Below are positions 10,753 to 28,378 of a DNA stretch of 64,000 nt, piece after piece. Numbering within the stretch: the first letter of the stretch is position 1; each line of letters begins with the position of its first letter. The notes below the pieces were generated by a model. The model was given only the letters and a program-made list of their open reading frames with translations, was not told the DNA's origin and ran no database searches. The position numbers and the translations under genes were made by a program. Source of the stretch: Tepidiformaceae bacterium (GTDB lineage Bacteria > Chloroflexota > Dehalococcoidia > Tepidiformales > Tepidiformaceae); assembly GCA_958295975.1 (NCBI GenBank), contig OY282446.1, positions 1,341,289-1,405,288 on the forward strand, given 5' to 3'.

Positions 10753-10866
10753 CGGACGAGGGACGGGTCCGCGATCCAGCCCTCCAGCGGGTCGCAACGA
10801 GCCAGCGACGCTGAAGACTGGCTTGATCATGGCGCTGGTCGTCTACTATTCCAGAGAATTCAGCGG

Positions 10867-12426
10867 CTAGGATGCGCTTAGCTGTCGCCAGTTGGTGATC
10901 TGCTCCTGGAATGGGATCAGAAATTCGGCGATTTCTCTATCGCGATTCTCCGTTTCCATCTGCCCGACGATTCTGGCGATCTCGGCAGGAGCTCGGTTCA
11001 CTTCGGAAGCGAGCGCATCTAGTCTGGTCTTGGCAACATCACGCTGCTGAACATCCTCTCCCAACATCTGTTCGATGTCACTCATCCGTCGGCGTATGTC
11101 CTCGGAATTCATTCCCAAGGATGTCCCGTACTCCTCGTATCGAATCCTGAGCGTCTCCCAAATCCAGCATTCCGGAGAATTATTCCCGGGAAGGAACAAC
11201 GGCTGAACATTGCCTCCAGATTCGCTGGCCGCGCTCTTGATGCTGGATTCCATCTCCCGTGCATCACCATCCAGCACGAAGAGAAAGCTGTTCAGTTTGT
11301 TGAACTTGCCCAGTGTCCGCACATGGGCAGGGAATTCGTTCTTTCCCGCGTTCCTGCCGATGCTAAAATCCTCATGACGAAGGCCCATTCTCGTATTCAA
11401 CACGTCCAAGACGCCACGGACTACTCCTTCTGCGACTGCGTCTTCGCATAGAATCGAGATCCGGTCCCGTGATTGGCCATAAAGAGATCGCTGGAAGATG
11501 TCGCGATAGGCGGGCATCATCAGGACATCCGCTGTCTTGTCGTCTCGTTCCAAAAAGATCCGCGCATCCTGGGGAACGCTGTCCAGTATCACGGGGCTGT
11601 GTGAGGCGACGATGATTTGCAGTTGCTGACGCAGAGCAATGCGTTGAAGCTCCAGCATAACCTGTTGCTGTGTGTACGGATGTAGCCCAGTATCGACCTC
11701 ATCGATCAGAATCAATGCGTTATGCAGTTGAGAGATGTCTCTGGACATACGAATGATGGCCCGTTCTCCGGACGACATGTGGAACTCCGAATACCGCGTG
11801 TCATTCTCCGAATCCACTTCGGCAAAAAGAAGGTCACGGTTTTGAGTACTGATGACCGAGAGATTGCGGTAGCGTTGGCGCAGAATGCGATGGGCGAAGA
11901 CAAGAAGGTTGGGTGTCATGGGATCTGTAGTGTAATCCTTCCGCGCGATCTGCAAAATACTACGCACTTCCGAAGGATTGGAGAGATTCGAGAGCGTGCG
12001 GAGGTAAAGATGGCGTTCGGGTTGCGTGTTCCCCCTACGCTTCCAGCGATTTCCTCTCCTCCAATACATCGAAATTCGCTCATTCTCGTGCAAATAGTGG
12101 AACGCCAATTCCGTTTGCGCGGTATCGTCGGAAAGACTGCCCCCCTCTCGCTGATCCGTGAAGTTGGGGAAGAGCGTGCTGGGGACGAATTCGCGCGGTC
12201 CCCTGCCGGGCACGCGGTAGGCGCAGGCGCAGGCGAACAGCACCGTGGACTTTCCGCAGCCGTTCGGGCCAGCCAGCACGCAGACCGGGTAGTTGAACGG
12301 CACGCGCAGATCCCGGATACCACGGAAGTTTTTGACGCGGACTTCCAGCAGGGCATCATCACGCTGGGGACTGCTCGCGCGCAGGGCCCTCCACACTTCT
12401 TCGAGTTCGCTGGCGATCAGGGACAT
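10867..12426 (-). CDS. OLD-family ATPase with C-terminal TOPRIM-like nuclease domain, in a lower-GC island
   Basis: A 519-residue protein. The N-terminal half is an ABC/SMC-type ATPase: Walker A GPNGCGKST (~53-61), a signature SSGERAIIRM region, Walker B LILIDEVDTGLH (~234) and an H-loop ASHSP (~279). The second half has TOPRIM-like acidic motifs ILCEDAVAEG (~325) and FVLDGDAR (~380), as in overcoming-lysogenisation-defect nucleases. The gene is clearly less GC-rich and uses different codons than its neighbours, and has no partner gene (no UvrD-like GajB, no HNH PtuB). A TAAGAT -10-like box lies about 15 bp before the start. It is probably a mobile defence gene; whether it acts alone is unknown. 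Confidence 0.82.
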   Translation of the reverse strand: MSLIASELEEVWRALRASSPQRDDALLEVRVKNFRGIRDLRVPFNYPVCVLAGPNGCGKSTVLFACACAYRVPGRGPREFVPSTLFPNFTDQREGGSLSDDTAQTELAFHYLHENERISMYWRRGNRWKRRGNTQPERHLYLRTLSNLSNPSEVRSILQIARKDYTTDPMTPNLLVFAHRILRQRYRNLSVISTQNRDLLFAEVDSENDTRYSEFHMSSGERAIIRMSRDISQLHNALILIDEVDTGLHPYTQQQVMLELQRIALRQQLQIIVASHSPVILDSVPQDARIFLERDDKTADVLMMPAYRDIFQRSLYGQSRDRISILCEDAVAEGVVRGVLDVLNTRMGLRHEDFSIGRNAGKNEFPAHVRTLGKFNKLNSFLFVLDGDAREMESSIKSAASESGGNVQPLFLPGNNSPECWIWETLRIRYEEYGTSLGMNSEDIRRRMSDIEQMLGEDVQQRDVAKTRLDALASEVNRAPAEIARIVGQMETENRDREIAEFLIPFQEQITNWRQLSAS

Positions 12427-12763
12427 GTTGCTTCGGTTCTGATCTTAGTGTCTTACAGGGGGGCGCGCCACCCCGCAAGGGTGAGGGCGTTGCCGTGTGG
12501 GCGAGGAAAAAGGTCGTCCGCTCTAAAGTCAGCCGGTGGGGCGCTTGACAAGCCCGCGCGCGGCGCGGACGATCCCGCGTGCCGCCGATCCGCGCGCGGA
12601 CGGCGAGCCTGGGAGAACGGAACTCACGCACGCTCCAGTCCGCCCGGACCCCGCGTGGCCGGTACGGATGGCGAGCCGCGTTCGGCGCCCGCGCCCCGAC
12701 CGGCTCCATCCCTCCGCCCCCGCCCCGCAGCCAGGCGGCTGGCCGTTCCGGAGGGGAGCCGCC
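12427..12763. other. 337-bp intergenic region upstream of the pan operon
   Basis: No convincing gene is seen. The left part belongs to the promoter side of the minus-strand OLD gene (TAAGAT near 12442-12447 on the minus strand). A TTGACA at 12545-12550 is followed 17 bp later by GACGAT, a weak promoter candidate for panD. The rest is GC-rich with no clear riboswitch, terminator or repeat that I can recognise. Confidence 0.4.
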
Positions 12764-19691: not shown

Positions 19692-20246
19692 TCAGACGGC
19701 GCGCACGCCCTCCACGATCAGGCCCGCCGCCAGCGCCACCGCCAGCGCCCCCGTGAGCCGCGCCAGCGCGTCCGCCACGGGCCGGCTCCGTCCCGCCGCC
19801 AGCGCCGTCGCGCCCGCCGCGACCGCGATCGCGATCAGCGCCGCCACTGCCGCGCCCGCCTCGTCCCCGTCGCCGCCGCGGGAGATGGCGGCGGCCAGCG
19901 CCGCGGGCCCGGCCAGCAGCGGGAAGGCCAGCGGGAAGAGCGCCCCGCGCCAGCCGCCCTCCGCCGGCCACGCGAACGGCCCGAAGACGATCGTCGCCGC
20001 GCCCGTCGCCGCCAGCACGATCCCGGCGGAGACGCGGAACGTCTCCGCCTCCAACTCCAGCGCCGACAGGATCGCGTCCGCGCCGAAGGCGACGGCCAGC
20101 AGCGGCGCGGCGGCGGCGAGGAAGCCGATCGCCGCCGCCAGCGCCCGCGCGCGCCCGCGGTCGGGGGCCGCCGTCATGGCGGCGAAGGCCGCCGCCGGGT
20201 TCACCGCCGCGGCCAGCAGCAGGAGCGTCAGCCAGAAGCCGCTCAC
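19692..20246 (-). CDS. MarC/UPF0056-like integral membrane protein
   Basis: A 184-residue, very hydrophobic protein with about six membrane helices. The GTG start at 20246 lies in a GTGA overlap with the upstream AlbA_2 gene. The block AFPLLAGPAALAAAIS, and ETFRVSAGIVLAATG before it, match the MarC family pattern (PLAIPLLAGPG and FRIAGGILL). The length is slightly short for the family. MarC proteins are widespread membrane proteins without a settled substrate. Translational coupling links it to the regulator upstream. Confidence 0.7.
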   Translation of the reverse strand: MSGFWLTLLLLAAAVNPAAAFAAMTAAPDRGRARALAAAIGFLAAAAPLLAVAFGADAILSALELEAETFRVSAGIVLAATGAATIVFGPFAWPAEGGWRGALFPLAFPLLAGPAALAAAISRGGDGDEAGAAVAALIAIAVAAGATALAAGRSRPVADALARLTGALAVALAAGLIVEGVRAV

Positions 20247-21913
20247 GGTCCCCCCTCGCGTCCCGCCGCGCCGCTGGCGGCTGCCGGATGGTAACGGCGG
20301 GCGCGCGTCTTGCCCACGGCGCGAACGAGCCCGGCGGCGACGAGTTCGTTCAGCAGCGTGCGGATGGCCGTCCGGTCCTCGCCAAGCAGCCGCGCGCCCT
20401 CGGCGGTCGAGATGCTTCCGCGCTGGTCGATTTCGTTGAGGAGCGCCTGCCTCCGGCGTCGCTGCGCCTCCATGCCCTCGCTGCCGGCGCGGAGCACGAC
20501 CTCGTGGGACAGCACGTAGCGCGTCCCGCCCCCGCGTCCCGTTCGCACGAGCAGGCCCTTCGCCACGGCCCCCGCGAGGATGTCGCCGGGGTCGGCCCCG
20601 GGCAGCAGCTCCCGCAGCCGCCGCCGCGTAATCGCTCCCCGCTGCCGCGTTTCCACGAGCGCGAGGCGCTCCTCCCTGCTCATCGGGAAGTCGGCGAGCA
20701 GGGCGATCCACGCCTGATCGTCGATGCTCACGAGGATGCGGTTGTACAGGGTCACGGTCACCGAGCTGTCGGTGGCGCTGATGTCCGGCGGGGTCATGAG
20801 GCGCGCGTCCATCTCGCGGAACATGCGGTCCACGCCCTCGCCGTACTCCTCCACCAGGCCCAGCGTCTTGAGCACGCCCATCAGCCTGCGGTTGCGGCTG
20901 TAGTGCTCCTCGCGCATGTTCTCCACCGTGATGTGGCCCGGCAGCGGCCCCGGGCTGCGGATCTCCAGGCGATCATCCCAGATCGTGATGTCCGTGGTCG
21001 CTCCCGTCAGCCCGTAGTCCCGGTGCGCGAGCGCATTGAGCACGGCTTCCCGGATGACGGCGTCCGGGTATTCCGGCAGCGCCTCGCGCCGCGCCCCGGC
21101 CACGACCTCGTACCGCTTCGTGTGGCGTTCGATGAACCGCAGGCAGCACGCGAGGACGTCCAGCAGCGGGCCGGAGCACTCCTCGCGGTCGAGGGAGGCC
21201 CCCGGGCCCGGGCCGATGCCCTCCCTCCGCACGAGCTGCACGGCGGCGCCCCGCACCGATTGCCGCGGGTCCGCGGCGAAGAGCAGCACCGCCGCCCTCA
21301 GCGCGCGGAAGGGAGGCTCGGCCGTGAGCGCGACGCCGAGGTCGACGAGCGCGCGCGGGATGCGGGCGCGCCGCACCGCTGGCCTGCCGCTGGCGGCGAG
21401 CGCCTCGTTCACGCGCGACAGATCGAGGGTCTCGGGCCCGTACCCGACCGGCTCGTCCTCGCCGGAGCGCTCTTCCCGCTCGCGCACGAAGCGCGCGAGC
21501 ATGTCGCCGCGTAGCGGTTGGCAGTCGCCGCCCACGCGCCGCAGGAGCCTGCCGTCGGGAGCGGTCACGATCCGCCCGCGCACTTCGGGAACTGCGGTCA
21601 CGGTCAGCTCGGCGTCGCCCACGTGGATGGCGCGAACCTGCACCTCGACGTGGCACTCGTTGGCGAAGCGCGTGATCCGGTCGAGGGTTCTCTGCGAGAA
21701 CGGGCAGCCGACGATGTTGAGGTCCCGATCGACCCCGTGGACGATCAAGCCCCCGTCGGTCATCGCCATGGCCGGGATCGTGTCGAGGATCTCCCGGGAG
21801 ACCCCGCGCTTGAAGTCGAGCGCCTCGTGCTCGATCCGGCCGAACCGCGCCCAGAACTCATCGTCCGTGAGGCGATCGGGGAGTTCGGCGAGGTCGTGGC
21901 GGGCGGGAACCAT
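20243..21913 (-). CDS. AlbA_2 / Schlafen-like ATP-binding protein with winged-helix C-terminus (COG2865-like regulator)
   Basis: About 556 residues from the ATG at 21913 (MVPARHDL); an ATG at 21961 would add 16 residues but runs back across the first leader repeat, so the shorter start is preferred. Residues ~15-125 form the AlbA_2 domain (ALDFKRGVSREIL, MTDGGLIVHGVD). Next comes a GHKL-type ATPase-like region with LNALAHRDYG and EYGEGVDRMFREM, typical of HATPase_c_4 proteins. The last ~170 residues contain two winged-helix-like segments. Proteins of this layout are taken as transcriptional regulators or RNA-processing factors; the role here is unknown. The leader holds two ~77-bp diverged repeats. 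Confidence 0.8.
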   Translation of the reverse strand: MVPARHDLAELPDRLTDDEFWARFGRIEHEALDFKRGVSREILDTIPAMAMTDGGLIVHGVDRDLNIVGCPFSQRTLDRITRFANECHVEVQVRAIHVGDAELTVTAVPEVRGRIVTAPDGRLLRRVGGDCQPLRGDMLARFVREREERSGEDEPVGYGPETLDLSRVNEALAASGRPAVRRARIPRALVDLGVALTAEPPFRALRAAVLLFAADPRQSVRGAAVQLVRREGIGPGPGASLDREECSGPLLDVLACCLRFIERHTKRYEVVAGARREALPEYPDAVIREAVLNALAHRDYGLTGATTDITIWDDRLEIRSPGPLPGHITVENMREEHYSRNRRLMGVLKTLGLVEEYGEGVDRMFREMDARLMTPPDISATDSSVTVTLYNRILVSIDDQAWIALLADFPMSREERLALVETRQRGAITRRRLRELLPGADPGDILAGAVAKGLLVRTGRGGGTRYVLSHEVVLRAGSEGMEAQRRRRQALLNEIDQRGSISTAEGARLLGEDRTAIRTLLNELVAAGLVRAVGKTRARRYHPAAASGAAGREGGP

Positions 21914-21917
21914 GCGG

Positions 21918-22071
21918 AGATGATAAGACAAACTTGGTCCTGTAAACCAGTCATAGACCATTCACAGGAATATGTTCGCCAAAATCATCGCGGAAGATGA
22001 TAAGATAAACTAGTCCGCAAAATCAGCTGATTAATCTATTTGGGAATATGTTTGTCGAAACATGCTTCCCG
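21918..22071. repeat. Two diverged tandem copies of a ~77-bp leader element
   Basis: Unit 1 starts at 21918 and unit 2 at 21995. Each begins with the 17-mer AGATGATAAGAyAAACT (one mismatch, 21918-21934 and 21995-22011), and each has GGAATATGTTyGyCrAAA about 49 bp later (21967 and 22043). Between them similarity is weaker. Unit 2 also has a perfect palindrome AATCAGCTGATT (22021-22032) and ATGTTT-4-AAACAT (22048-22063). The stretch is AT-rich compared with its surroundings and lies directly before the AlbA_2 gene, so it is likely a duplicated promoter/operator. Confidence 0.7.
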
Positions 22072-22072
22072 C

Positions 22073-23254
22073 TCACGGCGCGGCCCCGCGGCTGGCCAGA
22101 ATCGCCCGCGTCAGCGCCAGCCCCGAGAGCGCGTGCTGCTGGTCGTCCATGCGCGTGACGCCGTCGCGGAACCACGCGCCCCGAACCAGCTCGGCCCGCG
22201 CCGCGCCGCCCGCTCCGGCGTCCGTCGTCTGGCGGTCGGCGAGCAGCGCCGCCCCGCAGATGGCGCGCTCCGCGATTTTGGGTTCGAGGTCGGCCAGCCG
22301 CTCGTCGGCGCGCGCCAGCCGCCAGAGCGAGGTCAGCCCCTCCACCCACGTGCCCAGCCCCGCCGCGCGCGAGCGCACGCCATGGAGGCGCGCGTTCAGC
22401 TCCCCGCCCGTGCGCTGCGATTCCACCCGCACGAGGAAGCCGAAGCGCTCGGCCAGCGACCGCGCGTAGGCCGCGTGATGCTCCGCCAGCGGCCAGTCCG
22501 CCATCTCCGCCAGCCCGTAGGCCGCCCACTGGTCCGCCCACGGCGGGAAGTCGATCCCCTCCGCCTCGTCCCGTTCCAGCGCCAGGTAGTCCGCGATGAG
22601 CAGCGCGGGCTCGTCCCAGCCATCCTCCGGGAAATGCCGGTGCATCTGCGCCAGCGCCCAGAACGCCTCGCCCGTGGCGTAGCGCGAGGTCACGGACGGG
22701 TCGGGCGCGCCCGTGGACTCCAGCCAGTAGTTGAGCATGGCCCCGTCGGCGCGCTGCATGACGACGAGGAAGCGCGCCAGCTCGCGCATCAGCCCGTCGC
22801 GCTCCGTCTCGCCCGTGGCCAGCCGCCGCTGCGTCAGCCCCGCCAGCATGAGCGAGCTCGCGCCCAGCTTGACCCGCCCCGTGCGCGGCGTCCGCAGCGC
22901 CGCCCAGTCCCCGTGCCGGATGAGGTTCGCCTCCATCCAGGCCATGCCCCGGTCGGCGGCGGGCAGCAAGTCGATGTCGCCCAGCGCCACCGCCTGGTAG
23001 AGCGACATCGTCACGCCCGCGTGGCGCACGGCGTTGTAGTCGTCCGGGATGGCGTCCGCCTCCGCGTCGTACTCGTAGACGTACGAGCCGTCGGGGTGCT
23101 GGGCGGCCTCGATCCAGCCCGCCGCTCCCGCCGCCGCCGCCTCCAGCCCCGCTGGCGAGAGCTCGGGGCAGCGTTGCGGCGCCGCCGTGGTCAGCCGCAG
23201 CAGCGCCATCCCGGCGAGGCAGACGCCGAGGGCGACGCTGGCCGCCGCCAGCAC
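22073..23254 (-). CDS. Exported or membrane-anchored alpha/alpha-toroid-like protein, unknown function
   Basis: A 393-residue protein starting with GTG 1 bp after the SMP-30 gene. The first ~25 residues are a hydrophobic signal or anchor. The remainder is helix-rich with Trp/Asp-rich repeats (WIEAAQHPDGSYVYEYD, FWALAQMHRHFP, WADQWAAYGLAEM), as in six-hairpin/terpenoid-cyclase-like alpha/alpha toroids that act on polysaccharides or isoprenoids. I cannot name the family. It is the last gene of a CoA-transferase - lactonase - toroid run on the minus strand. Confidence 0.6.
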   Translation of the reverse strand: MLAAASVALGVCLAGMALLRLTTAAPQRCPELSPAGLEAAAAGAAGWIEAAQHPDGSYVYEYDAEADAIPDDYNAVRHAGVTMSLYQAVALGDIDLLPAADRGMAWMEANLIRHGDWAALRTPRTGRVKLGASSLMLAGLTQRRLATGETERDGLMRELARFLVVMQRADGAMLNYWLESTGAPDPSVTSRYATGEAFWALAQMHRHFPEDGWDEPALLIADYLALERDEAEGIDFPPWADQWAAYGLAEMADWPLAEHHAAYARSLAERFGFLVRVESQRTGGELNARLHGVRSRAAGLGTWVEGLTSLWRLARADERLADLEPKIAERAICGAALLADRQTTDAGAGGAARAELVRGAWFRDGVTRMDDQQHALSGLALTRAILASRGAAP

Positions 23255-26412: not shown

Positions 26413-26676
26413 ATGCCGCCCCTTCACTCCGACGCCGCCATCCCCCCGGGGGAGTTCCTGCGCGAGCACCTCGACGACCTCGGCATGAGCCAGACCGAGC
26501 TCGCGCGCCGTATCGGACGCCCGCGCCAGGTCGTCAACGAGATCGCGTGCGGGAAGAAGGCCATCACCGCCCAGACCGCGCTCCGGCTGGAGCGCGCGCT
26601 GGAGACGCCCGCGCACGTCTGGCTGGGGCTGGAGCAGGAGTACCGGCTCGCGCTCGCGCGCCAGCGCCCCGCCTGA
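26413..26676 (+). CDS. HigA-like XRE-family antitoxin/regulator
   Basis: An 87-residue helix-turn-helix protein. The N-terminal IPPGEFLREHLDDLGMSQTELARRIGRPRQVVNEI and the later ALRLERALETPAHVWLGLEQEYRL segment match the HigA family antidote pattern. HigA normally follows a HigB mRNA-cleaving toxin, but no HigB is found on either side. It may be a solitary regulator or a leftover of a broken module. It lies just before the restriction-modification island. Confidence 0.75.
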   Translation: MPPLHSDAAIPPGEFLREHLDDLGMSQTELARRIGRPRQVVNEIACGKKAITAQTALRLERALETPAHVWLGLEQEYRLALARQRPA

Positions 26677-26743
26677 GCCTGGCCTCTGGTTGCGGGCGAA
26701 CGGCCATTGCCCTAGGCTCAGCCCAACTTTTCCGGAGGAGCCT

Positions 26744-26785
26744 GTGACCGACGGCGAGACTTCGGAGATTTACTCGGTGCTCTAG
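26744..26785 (+). pseudogene. 5' remnant of a small gene interrupted by the restriction-modification island
   Basis: A GGAGGAG ribosome-binding site at 26734-26740 precedes GTG at 26744 and a 13-codon frame (VTDGETSEIYSVL) ending in TAG. Codon use is GC-rich like the host, and composition drops right after it. The matching 3' end seems to lie beyond the restriction-modification genes (28380-28445), where a SHOCT-like tail ends. Joined, they would make a short SHOCT-domain protein. This is inference from position and composition; a short leader peptide is the alternative. Confidence 0.35.
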
Positions 26786-26849
26786 GAACTGGACGGCGGT
26801 ATCGCCTCTGTCTGCCAGACTAGATGTACTGAGAAGGGAGATGAATCGA

Positions 26850-27758
26850 ATGGTCACCACGCTTTCTCCTGACACCAGTGAACTCGCGCTTACGGAGCAG
26901 CATGGCGAGTACATCGGCGATCTTCAGCGTGCCATTTTCTACTGCGAGAGCAGCGAGAACATGTCGCATATTCCCGATGCATCCGTTCATCTCACTGTTA
27001 CGAGCCCGCCTTACTGGAGCGCTATCGACTACGACGTTCACGTCAGTGATCGAACGGCGTGGCATCGCAACGGAGCGTACAATAGGGCTGGCAACGACTT
27101 CGATGACTGGTTGACTACCATGGAGCGCGTCTTCGCCGAGACCCTGCGCGTGACTGCCCCCGGTGGCTTCTGCGCCGTCGTTATGGGCAGTATTCTCAAG
27201 GAAGGCAGACGGCTGCCGTTGCCGCAGTATCTGACCGTTCGGATGTGTGATATCGGCTGGGAGTTTCAGGAGGAGATCGTCTGGAACAAGGTGACCGGGG
27301 GAGTGGGACGCGCGGGATCGTTCATTCAGCACCCGCGCGCGGGCTACTACTATCCGAACATCATGACCGAAAGCATTCTGGTGTTTCGTCGCGAGGGCGA
27401 GAAGCGACGCGGATCGGCTATCGCACTTCCCATCGATGACGTGTTCACGCGCGATATCGCCAATAACATCTGGCACATCGCGCCTGTGCCGCCGAAGCAG
27501 ATCGAGCATCCGTGTCCGTTTCCCAGTGAGCTGGTTCGCCGTCTCGTGCGGCTCTACAGCGACGAGGGCGACACGGTGCTTGATCCATTCGTGGGAAGTG
27601 GTACGACTGTCAGCGTGGCCGTTCGCGAGGATCGATACGGCATCGGCTACGACATCGAGCAGACGTACATTGACATCGCACGCGAGATGGTGATTCATCC
27701 GCCTACGCCTCGCAAGAATCAACTCATTCCGGCGGTGAGGAAGGTGGCTGTTCGATGA
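26850..27758 (+). CDS. Type II DNA methyltransferase, beta-class (N4-cytosine or N6-adenine)
   Basis: About 302 residues. The ATG at 26850 was preferred over 26841 because the GGGAG ribosome-binding site ends at 26840, directly against the earlier ATG but 9 bp from the later one. Catalytic motif IV TSPPYW (residues ~51-56) comes before the AdoMet-binding motif I DPFVGSGTT (~245), the order of beta-class enzymes; an SPPY motif is usual for N4-cytosine methylation. The gene is visibly lower in GC than its neighbours. Its TGA overlaps the restriction enzyme's ATG, so the pair is translationally coupled. Confidence 0.9.
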   Translation: MVTTLSPDTSELALTEQHGEYIGDLQRAIFYCESSENMSHIPDASVHLTVTSPPYWSAIDYDVHVSDRTAWHRNGAYNRAGNDFDDWLTTMERVFAETLRVTAPGGFCAVVMGSILKEGRRLPLPQYLTVRMCDIGWEFQEEIVWNKVTGGVGRAGSFIQHPRAGYYYPNIMTESILVFRREGEKRRGSAIALPIDDVFTRDIANNIWHIAPVPPKQIEHPCPFPSELVRRLVRLYSDEGDTVLDPFVGSGTTVSVAVREDRYGIGYDIEQTYIDIAREMVIHPPTPRKNQLIPAVRKVAVR

Positions 27759-28378
27759 ATTCGCGATTCAATGTCGAGCGGCGTGCGTTCGAATACCTGC
27801 GCGAGAACATGCCGGATGATGCGCGCACCGAGTTTCTTGACGCACTCAAACAGATCGTGCTTCAGTACAATACCACCATTCCCGAGAATCGCTTTACCGT
27901 GGGCGGCGTCGTGGAGCATCTGGTGTGTGCGCTGCTCAAGGCTACTGGTCTGAACGTCACTTTCATGGCAGACGAGGATCATGGCTACGATCTGATGCTG
28001 CCGCATGGCAAAGGTCTAAGTGTCAAGAGTCAGTTCACGCGTAATCGTCAAGGCATTGGTCTCATCAACACTAGAGGCAACACCAAGCCGGAACGATGGA
28101 AAGATGCCACACTGTTTGTCATCAGAGATACGGGTATCGTCTACGGAGACGCGGACGTTCCAGGAATCGGCAGTTTTCTGAATCCGAAAGGTGATCAGCT
28201 TGTGCTGCGTCCCGGCGGACTATCTCTGCTGGAGAGCGATCCCACGCGTGTGATCGCAATGCCTGTTCCCACAAAGCCTGATAAGAATGCGGCGGGTAAA
28301 AGCCTCAAGGTCAGCACGTCGTTGGCTCGCGAGTTGCTTCAGCGCTATCCCGTTCTGCGGGATGCGTATATGCCTTAG
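27755..28378 (+). CDS. Putative type II restriction endonuclease (PD-(D/E)XK fold)
   Basis: A 207-residue protein starting inside an ATGA overlap with the methyltransferase. I do not recognise the exact family. A possible PD-(D/E)XK active site is formed by E54 (VVEHLV), D79 (GYDLML) and S89-V90-K91 (LSVKSQ), with the expected spacing of a D-(n)-(E/S)xK pair. Position directly after a DNA methyltransferase and shared low GC make it the cognate endonuclease; recognition sequence is unknown. Confidence 0.75.
   Translation: MNSRFNVERRAFEYLRENMPDDARTEFLDALKQIVLQYNTTIPENRFTVGGVVEHLVCALLKATGLNVTFMADEDHGYDLMLPHGKGLSVKSQFTRNRQGIGLINTRGNTKPERWKDATLFVIRDTGIVYGDADVPGIGSFLNPKGDQLVLRPGGLSLLESDPTRVIAMPVPTKPDKNAAGKSLKVSTSLARELLQRYPVLRDAYMP

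Follow-up and report, generated by a model that had tools for sequence, protein, structure and literature searches.

Two described kinds of control region come closest to the leader analysed here. A signature reported for leaderless genes in high-GC bacteria is a TANNNT signal that precedes the start by about 12 bp, according to the available part of the source (PMC3160421). AbiE-type antitoxin promoters, as presented in the accessible part of another study, belong to autoregulated genes and carry several inverted-repeat operators (PMC7319586). Among the matches listed for promoter duplication in the literature we found no comparable case, and no title among those listed for AlbA_2/HATPase_c_4 proteins reported a test of whether they bind or control their own repeated promoters.

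We studied a 64-kb stretch of a 2.4-Mb genome, called the window below, and in it the 159 bp (21914-22072) that separate the stop of a 393-aa gene from the ATG of a gene whose product matches Pfam SLFN_AlbA_2 and HATPase_c_4 (the AlbA_2 gene). Going by the DNA and its relatives, this leader is probably the AT-rich promoter region of an accessory gene, duplicated once, with a gene-side copy of the leaderless TANNNT type. The features are collected in Table 1.

Table 1. Features of the AlbA_2 leader and its surroundings, in window coordinates.
Feature	Position	Strand	Remark
10-bp direct repeat (CCGTGAGCGG on minus strand), downstream insertion end	20239..20248	.	contains GTGA stop/start overlap with MarC
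AlbA_2 / HATPase_c_4 gene	20243..21913	-	556 aa, missing at this site in relatives
ATG start codon of AlbA_2 / HATPase_c_4 gene	21911..21913	-	
Gene-proximal leader copy	21914..21988	-	75 nt, ATG 21988 to base preceding ATG 21913
TATCAT, proposed leaderless-promoter -10 element	21920..21925	-	6 nt before ATG
8-codon frame (MILANIFL, then stop), possible start of distal-promoter transcript	21962..21988	-	stop directly before in-frame ATG 21961; probably incidental
Block 2, proximal (TTTTGGCGAACATATTCC on minus strand)	21967..21984	-	
Gene-distal leader copy	21989..22063	-	75 nt
TATCAT of distal copy	21997..22002	-	8 nt before ATG 21988
Perfect 12-bp palindrome AATCAGCTGATT	22021..22032	.	distal copy only
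Block 2, distal	22043..22060	-	
6-4-6 inverted repeat	22048..22063	.	distal copy only
10-bp direct repeat CCGTGAGCGG, upstream insertion end	22069..22078	.	contains 393-aa gene stop
393-aa gene, upstream neighbour	22073-23254	-	

An inserted gene between the 393-aa gene and MarC

The 393-aa gene is present in 34 of 37 relatives, and 29 of these loci were compared. Using tblastn, MarC was found behind it in 28 of the 29 (L140 is a contig end just past the stop) and AlbA_2 in none; the AlbA_2 protein likewise gave no match at E 1e-20 in any of 35 same-genus and same-family relatives. All eight genus relatives show the 393-aa gene overlapping the MarC gene through ATGA, and junctions inspected by eye show an overlap in most relatives, with a short gap in L151 (at the L145 junction the stop search ran on into MarC). 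Since MarC lies directly behind the 393-aa gene in relatives, with no AlbA_2 gene between them, gene and leader together represent a derived insertion, about 1.83 kb long. Outgroups matter for this assignment, because among the nine genomes of the genus it is the window genome whose 393-aa gene has diverged furthest. MarC looks native, its divergence from the genus scaling as for the 393-aa gene. Both neighbours are intact after the insertion, and the GTGA coupling to MarC has been recreated. The 10-bp direct repeat stands at both insertion ends; a match this long between windows so far apart has a chance P of 0.04. We propose that the accessory gene entered, with its leader, the stop/start overlap of an old pair formed by the 393-aa gene and the MarC gene.

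Close relatives of the inserted protein were not found in the collections searched. Across 400 genomes of the phylum, the best non-self match listed has 37% identity, with E up to 1e-40 and three candidates considered in each genome; among plasmids 163 records match, all at less than 60% identity and none covering 80% of the query, and exact peptide patterns brought up no closer homologue in genome or viral collections. One solved structure, 3lmm, matches the whole protein, over residues 41-380, and none matches its C-terminal part, for which the fold predicted without an alignment is uninformative (mean pLDDT 55.8). The protein also matches PADLOC Argonaute-associated models (pAgo E 5.9e-15, residues 38-393), a similarity that the AlbA_2/HATPase region common to both probably explains. 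An N-terminal extension by 16 codons from ATG 21961 was rejected as non-coding, with a GC3 of 0.44 vs 0.92 in the gene.

A tandemly duplicated, AT-rich leader

For comparisons within the genome we surveyed the window together with 20 evenly spaced 20-kb stretches (464 kb), in which a crude gene caller called 440 genes and supplied the gene starts, 398 of which were examined. The leader has 39% GC vs 73.5% in the window, where it is the lowest-GC window of 150 bp (38.7%, 10-bp steps). In the 464-kb sample 139 called gaps measure at least 60 bp; the one that holds the leader (40.9% GC over 159 bp) exceeds all others in AT content, and among all 150-bp windows the leader ranks fourth in AT-richness. 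The AlbA_2 gene itself is near native in composition (GC 72.5%, GC3 0.92, 12th-13th percentile of 283 genes). A near-native gene behind a 39% GC leader fits either of two origins: the donor was GC-rich but its promoter AT-rich, or the leader has been under selection for AT.

Other parts of the window are also lower in GC. A two-kilobase stretch at 10753-12763 (59% GC; 150-bp windows down to 48%) is one in which the crude gene caller found no gene. At 26413-26676 a HigA-type antitoxin is followed by a lower-GC stretch, in which an N6/N4 DNA methyltransferase (26841-27758) lies beside a 207-aa neighbour without a family match; the region 26413-28378 is possibly a restriction-modification island.

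The leader consists, from 21914 to 22063 on the minus strand, of two diverged tandem copies of about 75 bp each. In a refined alignment 55 of 79 columns are identical, gaps counted, and the two 78-bp halves, aligned globally, score 59, beyond all of 5000 dinucleotide shuffles (mean 18.1, sd 4.4, maximum 40.5). The longest exact ungapped run between the copies, 11, is within the range of shuffles (mean 6.1, maximum 14, n=2000), and Tandem Repeats Finder at a minimum score of 30 does not call the array. A simple ungapped repeat score of 14.5, that of this leader, is reached by 21 of 398 leaders genome-wide and by 5 of 120 leaders with a gap of at least 100 (the leader itself included in both counts), as well as by 11 of 252 coding controls. 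This score is thus not rare in the genome, and the significance of the duplication rests on the local shuffles. ATGs at 22063, 21988 and 21913 on the minus strand are spaced by exactly 75 nt and all stand in the AlbA_2 frame, with stops between them; one heads each leader unit and the third is the gene start.

Two direct repeats within the copies had drawn attention to the leader. Block 1, AGATGATAAGAyAAACT, occurs at 21918-21934 and 21995-22011 with 16 of 17 positions matching and a spacing of 77; the two occurrences of block 2 match at 15 of 18 positions with a spacing of 76. The first-pass annotation had described a strikingly AT-rich segment made of two diverged tandem copies, with the blocks at the same offsets and the gene-side unit running up to the start codon, and our analysis agrees on each of these points. 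Its further claim, that preservation is limited to the two blocks, is not supported by the distribution of matches, since match runs between the copies are no more clustered than under random placement (p=0.26); in the middle part alone, a short stretch, clustering has p 0.095. The leader is a real tandem duplication of an AT-rich, putative promoter region that arrived with the accessory gene, and we infer that the duplication arose once, long ago.

The same alignment bears on whether the second copy matters. The duplication may be a chance event of which the gene-side copy alone has any role, the distal copy decaying and the AT-richness stemming from donor DNA. Such a neutral relic would account for copies that are about 70% identical, with match runs as in random divergence, for palindromes that are not common to both copies and for the failure to find a related leader elsewhere. 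The adjoining coding DNA, however, is near native in composition while the leader still has 39% GC, and leader repetition recurs at another AlbA_2 gene of the genome. We consider this explanation unlikely. The distal copy is possibly inert.

The borders of the AT island suggest another origin, a small MITE-like mobile element inserted before the gene. An inverted repeat matching at 11 of 12 positions (21903-21914 and 22061-22072) lies at these borders, as terminal repeats would, with P about 0.004-0.007. But the leader is single-copy in the genome and no target duplication accompanies it, the direct repeats bounding gene and leader rather than the leader. The phage collection yielded one 26-base match at E 0.5 and the plasmid collection none, so that a mobile element of this kind appears extremely doubtful.

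A candidate leaderless promoter in each copy

In gene direction, block 1 leads into TATCAT-CTCCGC-ATG. The genome survey gives this arrangement a context. TANNNT shows a sharp peak at spacers of 6-9 nt before start codons, being present there at 39 of the 215 starts that have 40 bp or more of upstream gap, vs 5 of 145 where the gap is under 20; the controls are 13 of 6514 internal in-frame ATG/GTG codons and 35 of 1767 other intergenic ones. The motif and Shine-Dalgarno sequences nearly exclude each other. Among the 215 starts, 2 have TANNNT together with a Shine-Dalgarno 4-mer, 37 have TANNNT only, 84 the 4-mer only and 92 neither, so that the 4-mer accompanies 2 of 39 TANNNT starts vs 84 of the remaining 176. 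Many genes therefore look leaderless in this genome. Laboratory strains of Deinococcus and Mycobacterium smegmatis also employ leaderless promoters of the TANNNT kind. No -35 consensus was visible by eye in 53 aligned TANNNT cases. Among the matches listed for Gemmatimonadetes / Gemmatimonadota, the available part of PMC10783764 included, we found no paper on leaderless genes in that phylum.

The AlbA_2 start fits this class. Its TATCAT stands at the modal spacer of 6, and none of GGAG, AGGA or GAGG occurs at spacers 3-11. A simple Bayes estimate for a leaderless start is 0.86, taking as background a chance of about 3% for TANNNT at a given spacer in DNA so AT-rich. Against this assignment, a promoter scanner that models sigma-70 with a -35 box reports no site on the gene strand and one on the plus strand. 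By eye, a TTTACA-like element lies 15 nt upstream of the proximal box and is absent from the distal copy.

Its position and the survey make the -10 region of a leaderless promoter the best interpretation of block 1. The first-pass annotation had taken the two blocks for binding sites, perhaps of the AlbA_2 protein; a pair of regulatory units remains a fair reading, except that block 1 would serve as a -10 region and not primarily as an operator. A TATCAT box at this 6-nt spacing would place the first transcribed base on the A of the ATG or beside it, giving a leaderless mRNA. In the distal copy the same box is retained, from which a second, longer transcript may arise. We hypothesize that, in a genome of 73% GC, the AT-rich leader acts as a promoter whose strands separate easily, and that this promoter would keep the accessory gene, together with MarC coupled to it via GTGA, expressed independently of the upstream operon.

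A longer transcript could in principle form a leader RNA device, in which the 8-codon leaderless frame and a hairpin attenuate or reinitiate AlbA_2 translation. The distal TATCAT lies 8 nt ahead of ATG 21988, and the TGA of the frame is followed at once by the in-frame ATG 21961. Against such a device, the fold energy is ordinary (z -1.48, matched by 18 of 200 shuffles), the three Rfam matches all fall far below the gathering score, and the 16-codon extension has a non-coding GC3. We regard it as very improbable.

Private sites, a paralogue and known systems

Beyond their place in the putative promoter, the blocks were sought elsewhere. Block 1 has only 2 sites in the 2.4-Mb genome within 1 mismatch, the nearest other one at 2; block 2 has only 2 within 2 mismatches, the nearest other at 3. 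A site for a global regulator is ruled out by this uniqueness of both blocks. Homologous loci did not yield them either: in the 450 bases before the match at 35 such loci (two from the window genome) the blocks were not found, the best candidates having 5 and 6 mismatches and none beating shuffles; at 8 of the 35 the match starts at least 96 residues into the protein, and the leader is partly or not covered. The combined-block pattern has no exact match in the genome collection. Single blocks have 21 and 7 exact matches in viral contigs, with no contig common to both, which we take as chance. A conserved leader in relatives was discarded as well, 24 of 59 matching a 181-base query at E up to 1, with short hits of best E 0.05 that are attributable to chance.

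The palindrome and the 6-4-6 inverted repeat that had been claimed for the second copy are both present, and in that copy only; a 6-6-6 inverted repeat spans the junction of the copies at 21984-22001. In shuffled leaders a perfect 12-bp palindrome occurs with P about 0.05 and at least one inverted repeat with arms of at least 6 with P 0.235, while three such repeats together have P 0.004 (base-shuffled leaders). The same symmetric site was not found in each copy, the palindromes being distal or across the junction.

The window genome has four HATPase_c_4 matches at E 0.001. Seven of eight genus relatives lack such matches, and the eighth (G005) has two, both partial; in the family, other HATPase_c_4 genes occur in 4 of 37 relatives. 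One of the paralogues (L010:1405-2805) also has a repeated leader (L010:1147-1439; G000:C1:982338-982630), in which a 108-bp unit occurs in 2.7 copies, 94% identical. Every copy contains an ATG with first codons and a 21-bp palindrome (9-3-9), TACTCTAAC-ATT-GTTAGAGTA or a one-base variant. This palindrome occurs 4 times in the genome at up to 1 mismatch, and allowing up to 3 mismatches gives the same number, three in the leader and one 36-56 bp past the stop, where it forms the core of a longer hairpin. In the protein of this paralogue, weak Pfam matches point to a winged-helix region at the C-terminus (HTH_20 27.2 bits, cut-off 27, C-terminal piece).

The two leaders belong to the same gene family and share tandem upstream copies with an ATG before the gene, one having a gene-private palindrome and the other gene-private blocks. 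They differ in that the paralogue has a 108-bp unit in 2.7 copies at 94%, first codons included and sequence unrelated, and has TANNNT (spacer 9) in the gene-side copy only, whereas TATCAT is present in both copies of the AlbA_2 leader. The remaining two paralogues have no leader repeats. In a scan of 36 loci only the AlbA_2 gene and this paralogue exceed all 60 shuffles, some other starts being uncertain; a repeated leader is absent in 33 homologous loci of other genomes. Six further HATPase_c_4 loci of the family, some with unclear starts, have none either, and repeated leaders were rejected as a family trait on these counts (2 of 36 scanned loci, none of the six).

Repeats of other kinds were also seen. 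Another HATPase_c_4 paralogue has a 21-bp tandem repeat within its coding region (L130:4191-4315). Long repeats precede a few unrelated genes of the window genome, among them 115-bp and 66-bp shift repeats upstream of two unrelated genes (L110:8447-8628 and L110:2153-2408); located ahead of the proposed -10 boxes or of the starts, these resemble dispersed repeats.

Together, these sites permit an operator array, in which the copies would be bound by the AlbA_2 protein as a repressor or modulator of its own promoter, and duplication would supply more operators. The blocks are confined to this leader, at 2 sites each with no other within 1 mismatch, and the paralogue has its own repeated palindrome (3 sites in the leader, 1 behind the gene) and a candidate winged helix. 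Conversely, no palindrome is common to the two 77-bp copies, the blocks are not enriched over uniform divergence and were not found upstream of the 35 homologous loci, and Pfam finds no helix-turn-helix in the C-terminus of the 556-aa AlbA_2 protein. We therefore treat the array as a tentative possibility; it and the promoter reading can both be true. The private repeated palindrome at the paralogue makes self-regulation of AlbA_2 genes plausible, as a candidate. It is plausible too that a duplicated private control region is a habit of these genes in this genome, although two of four is a small number. Quite improbable, in our view, is a general scheme in which AlbA_2/HATPase_c_4 genes are single-gene inserts into the stop/start overlap of coupled pairs, each with a private, self-controlling tandem module of promoter, operator and start whose repetition recurs and is selected.

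We favour the duplicated promoter with a leaderless gene-side copy. The locus then offers a concrete picture of an accessory gene added to a very GC-rich, tightly packed genome with its neighbours unharmed, by way of its own AT-rich promoter of putative leaderless type and a recreated GTGA coupling. It also raises the question of self-control by AlbA_2/HATPase_c_4 proteins through binding at their repeated promoters; the paralogue, with its 21-bp palindrome, is the better gene to start with.

The anatomy of the promoter is already known, and the AlbA_2 leader is a modest new example of it. Like AbiE-type promoters, as far as the accessible part of that study describes them (PMC7319586), the leader has several candidate sites before a regulator-like gene; unlike them, its copies share no palindrome, and the sites are predicted from sequence. 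The resemblance to leaderless TANNNT genes, taken from the available part of their description (PMC3160421), lies in a box whose first T stands 12 nt ahead of the start codon (6 nt of box and 6 nt of spacer) and in a start without a Shine-Dalgarno motif in a high-GC genome. In contrast to those genes, the AlbA_2 transcript start is a predicted one, and its box lies inside a tandemly duplicated, exceptionally AT-rich unit.
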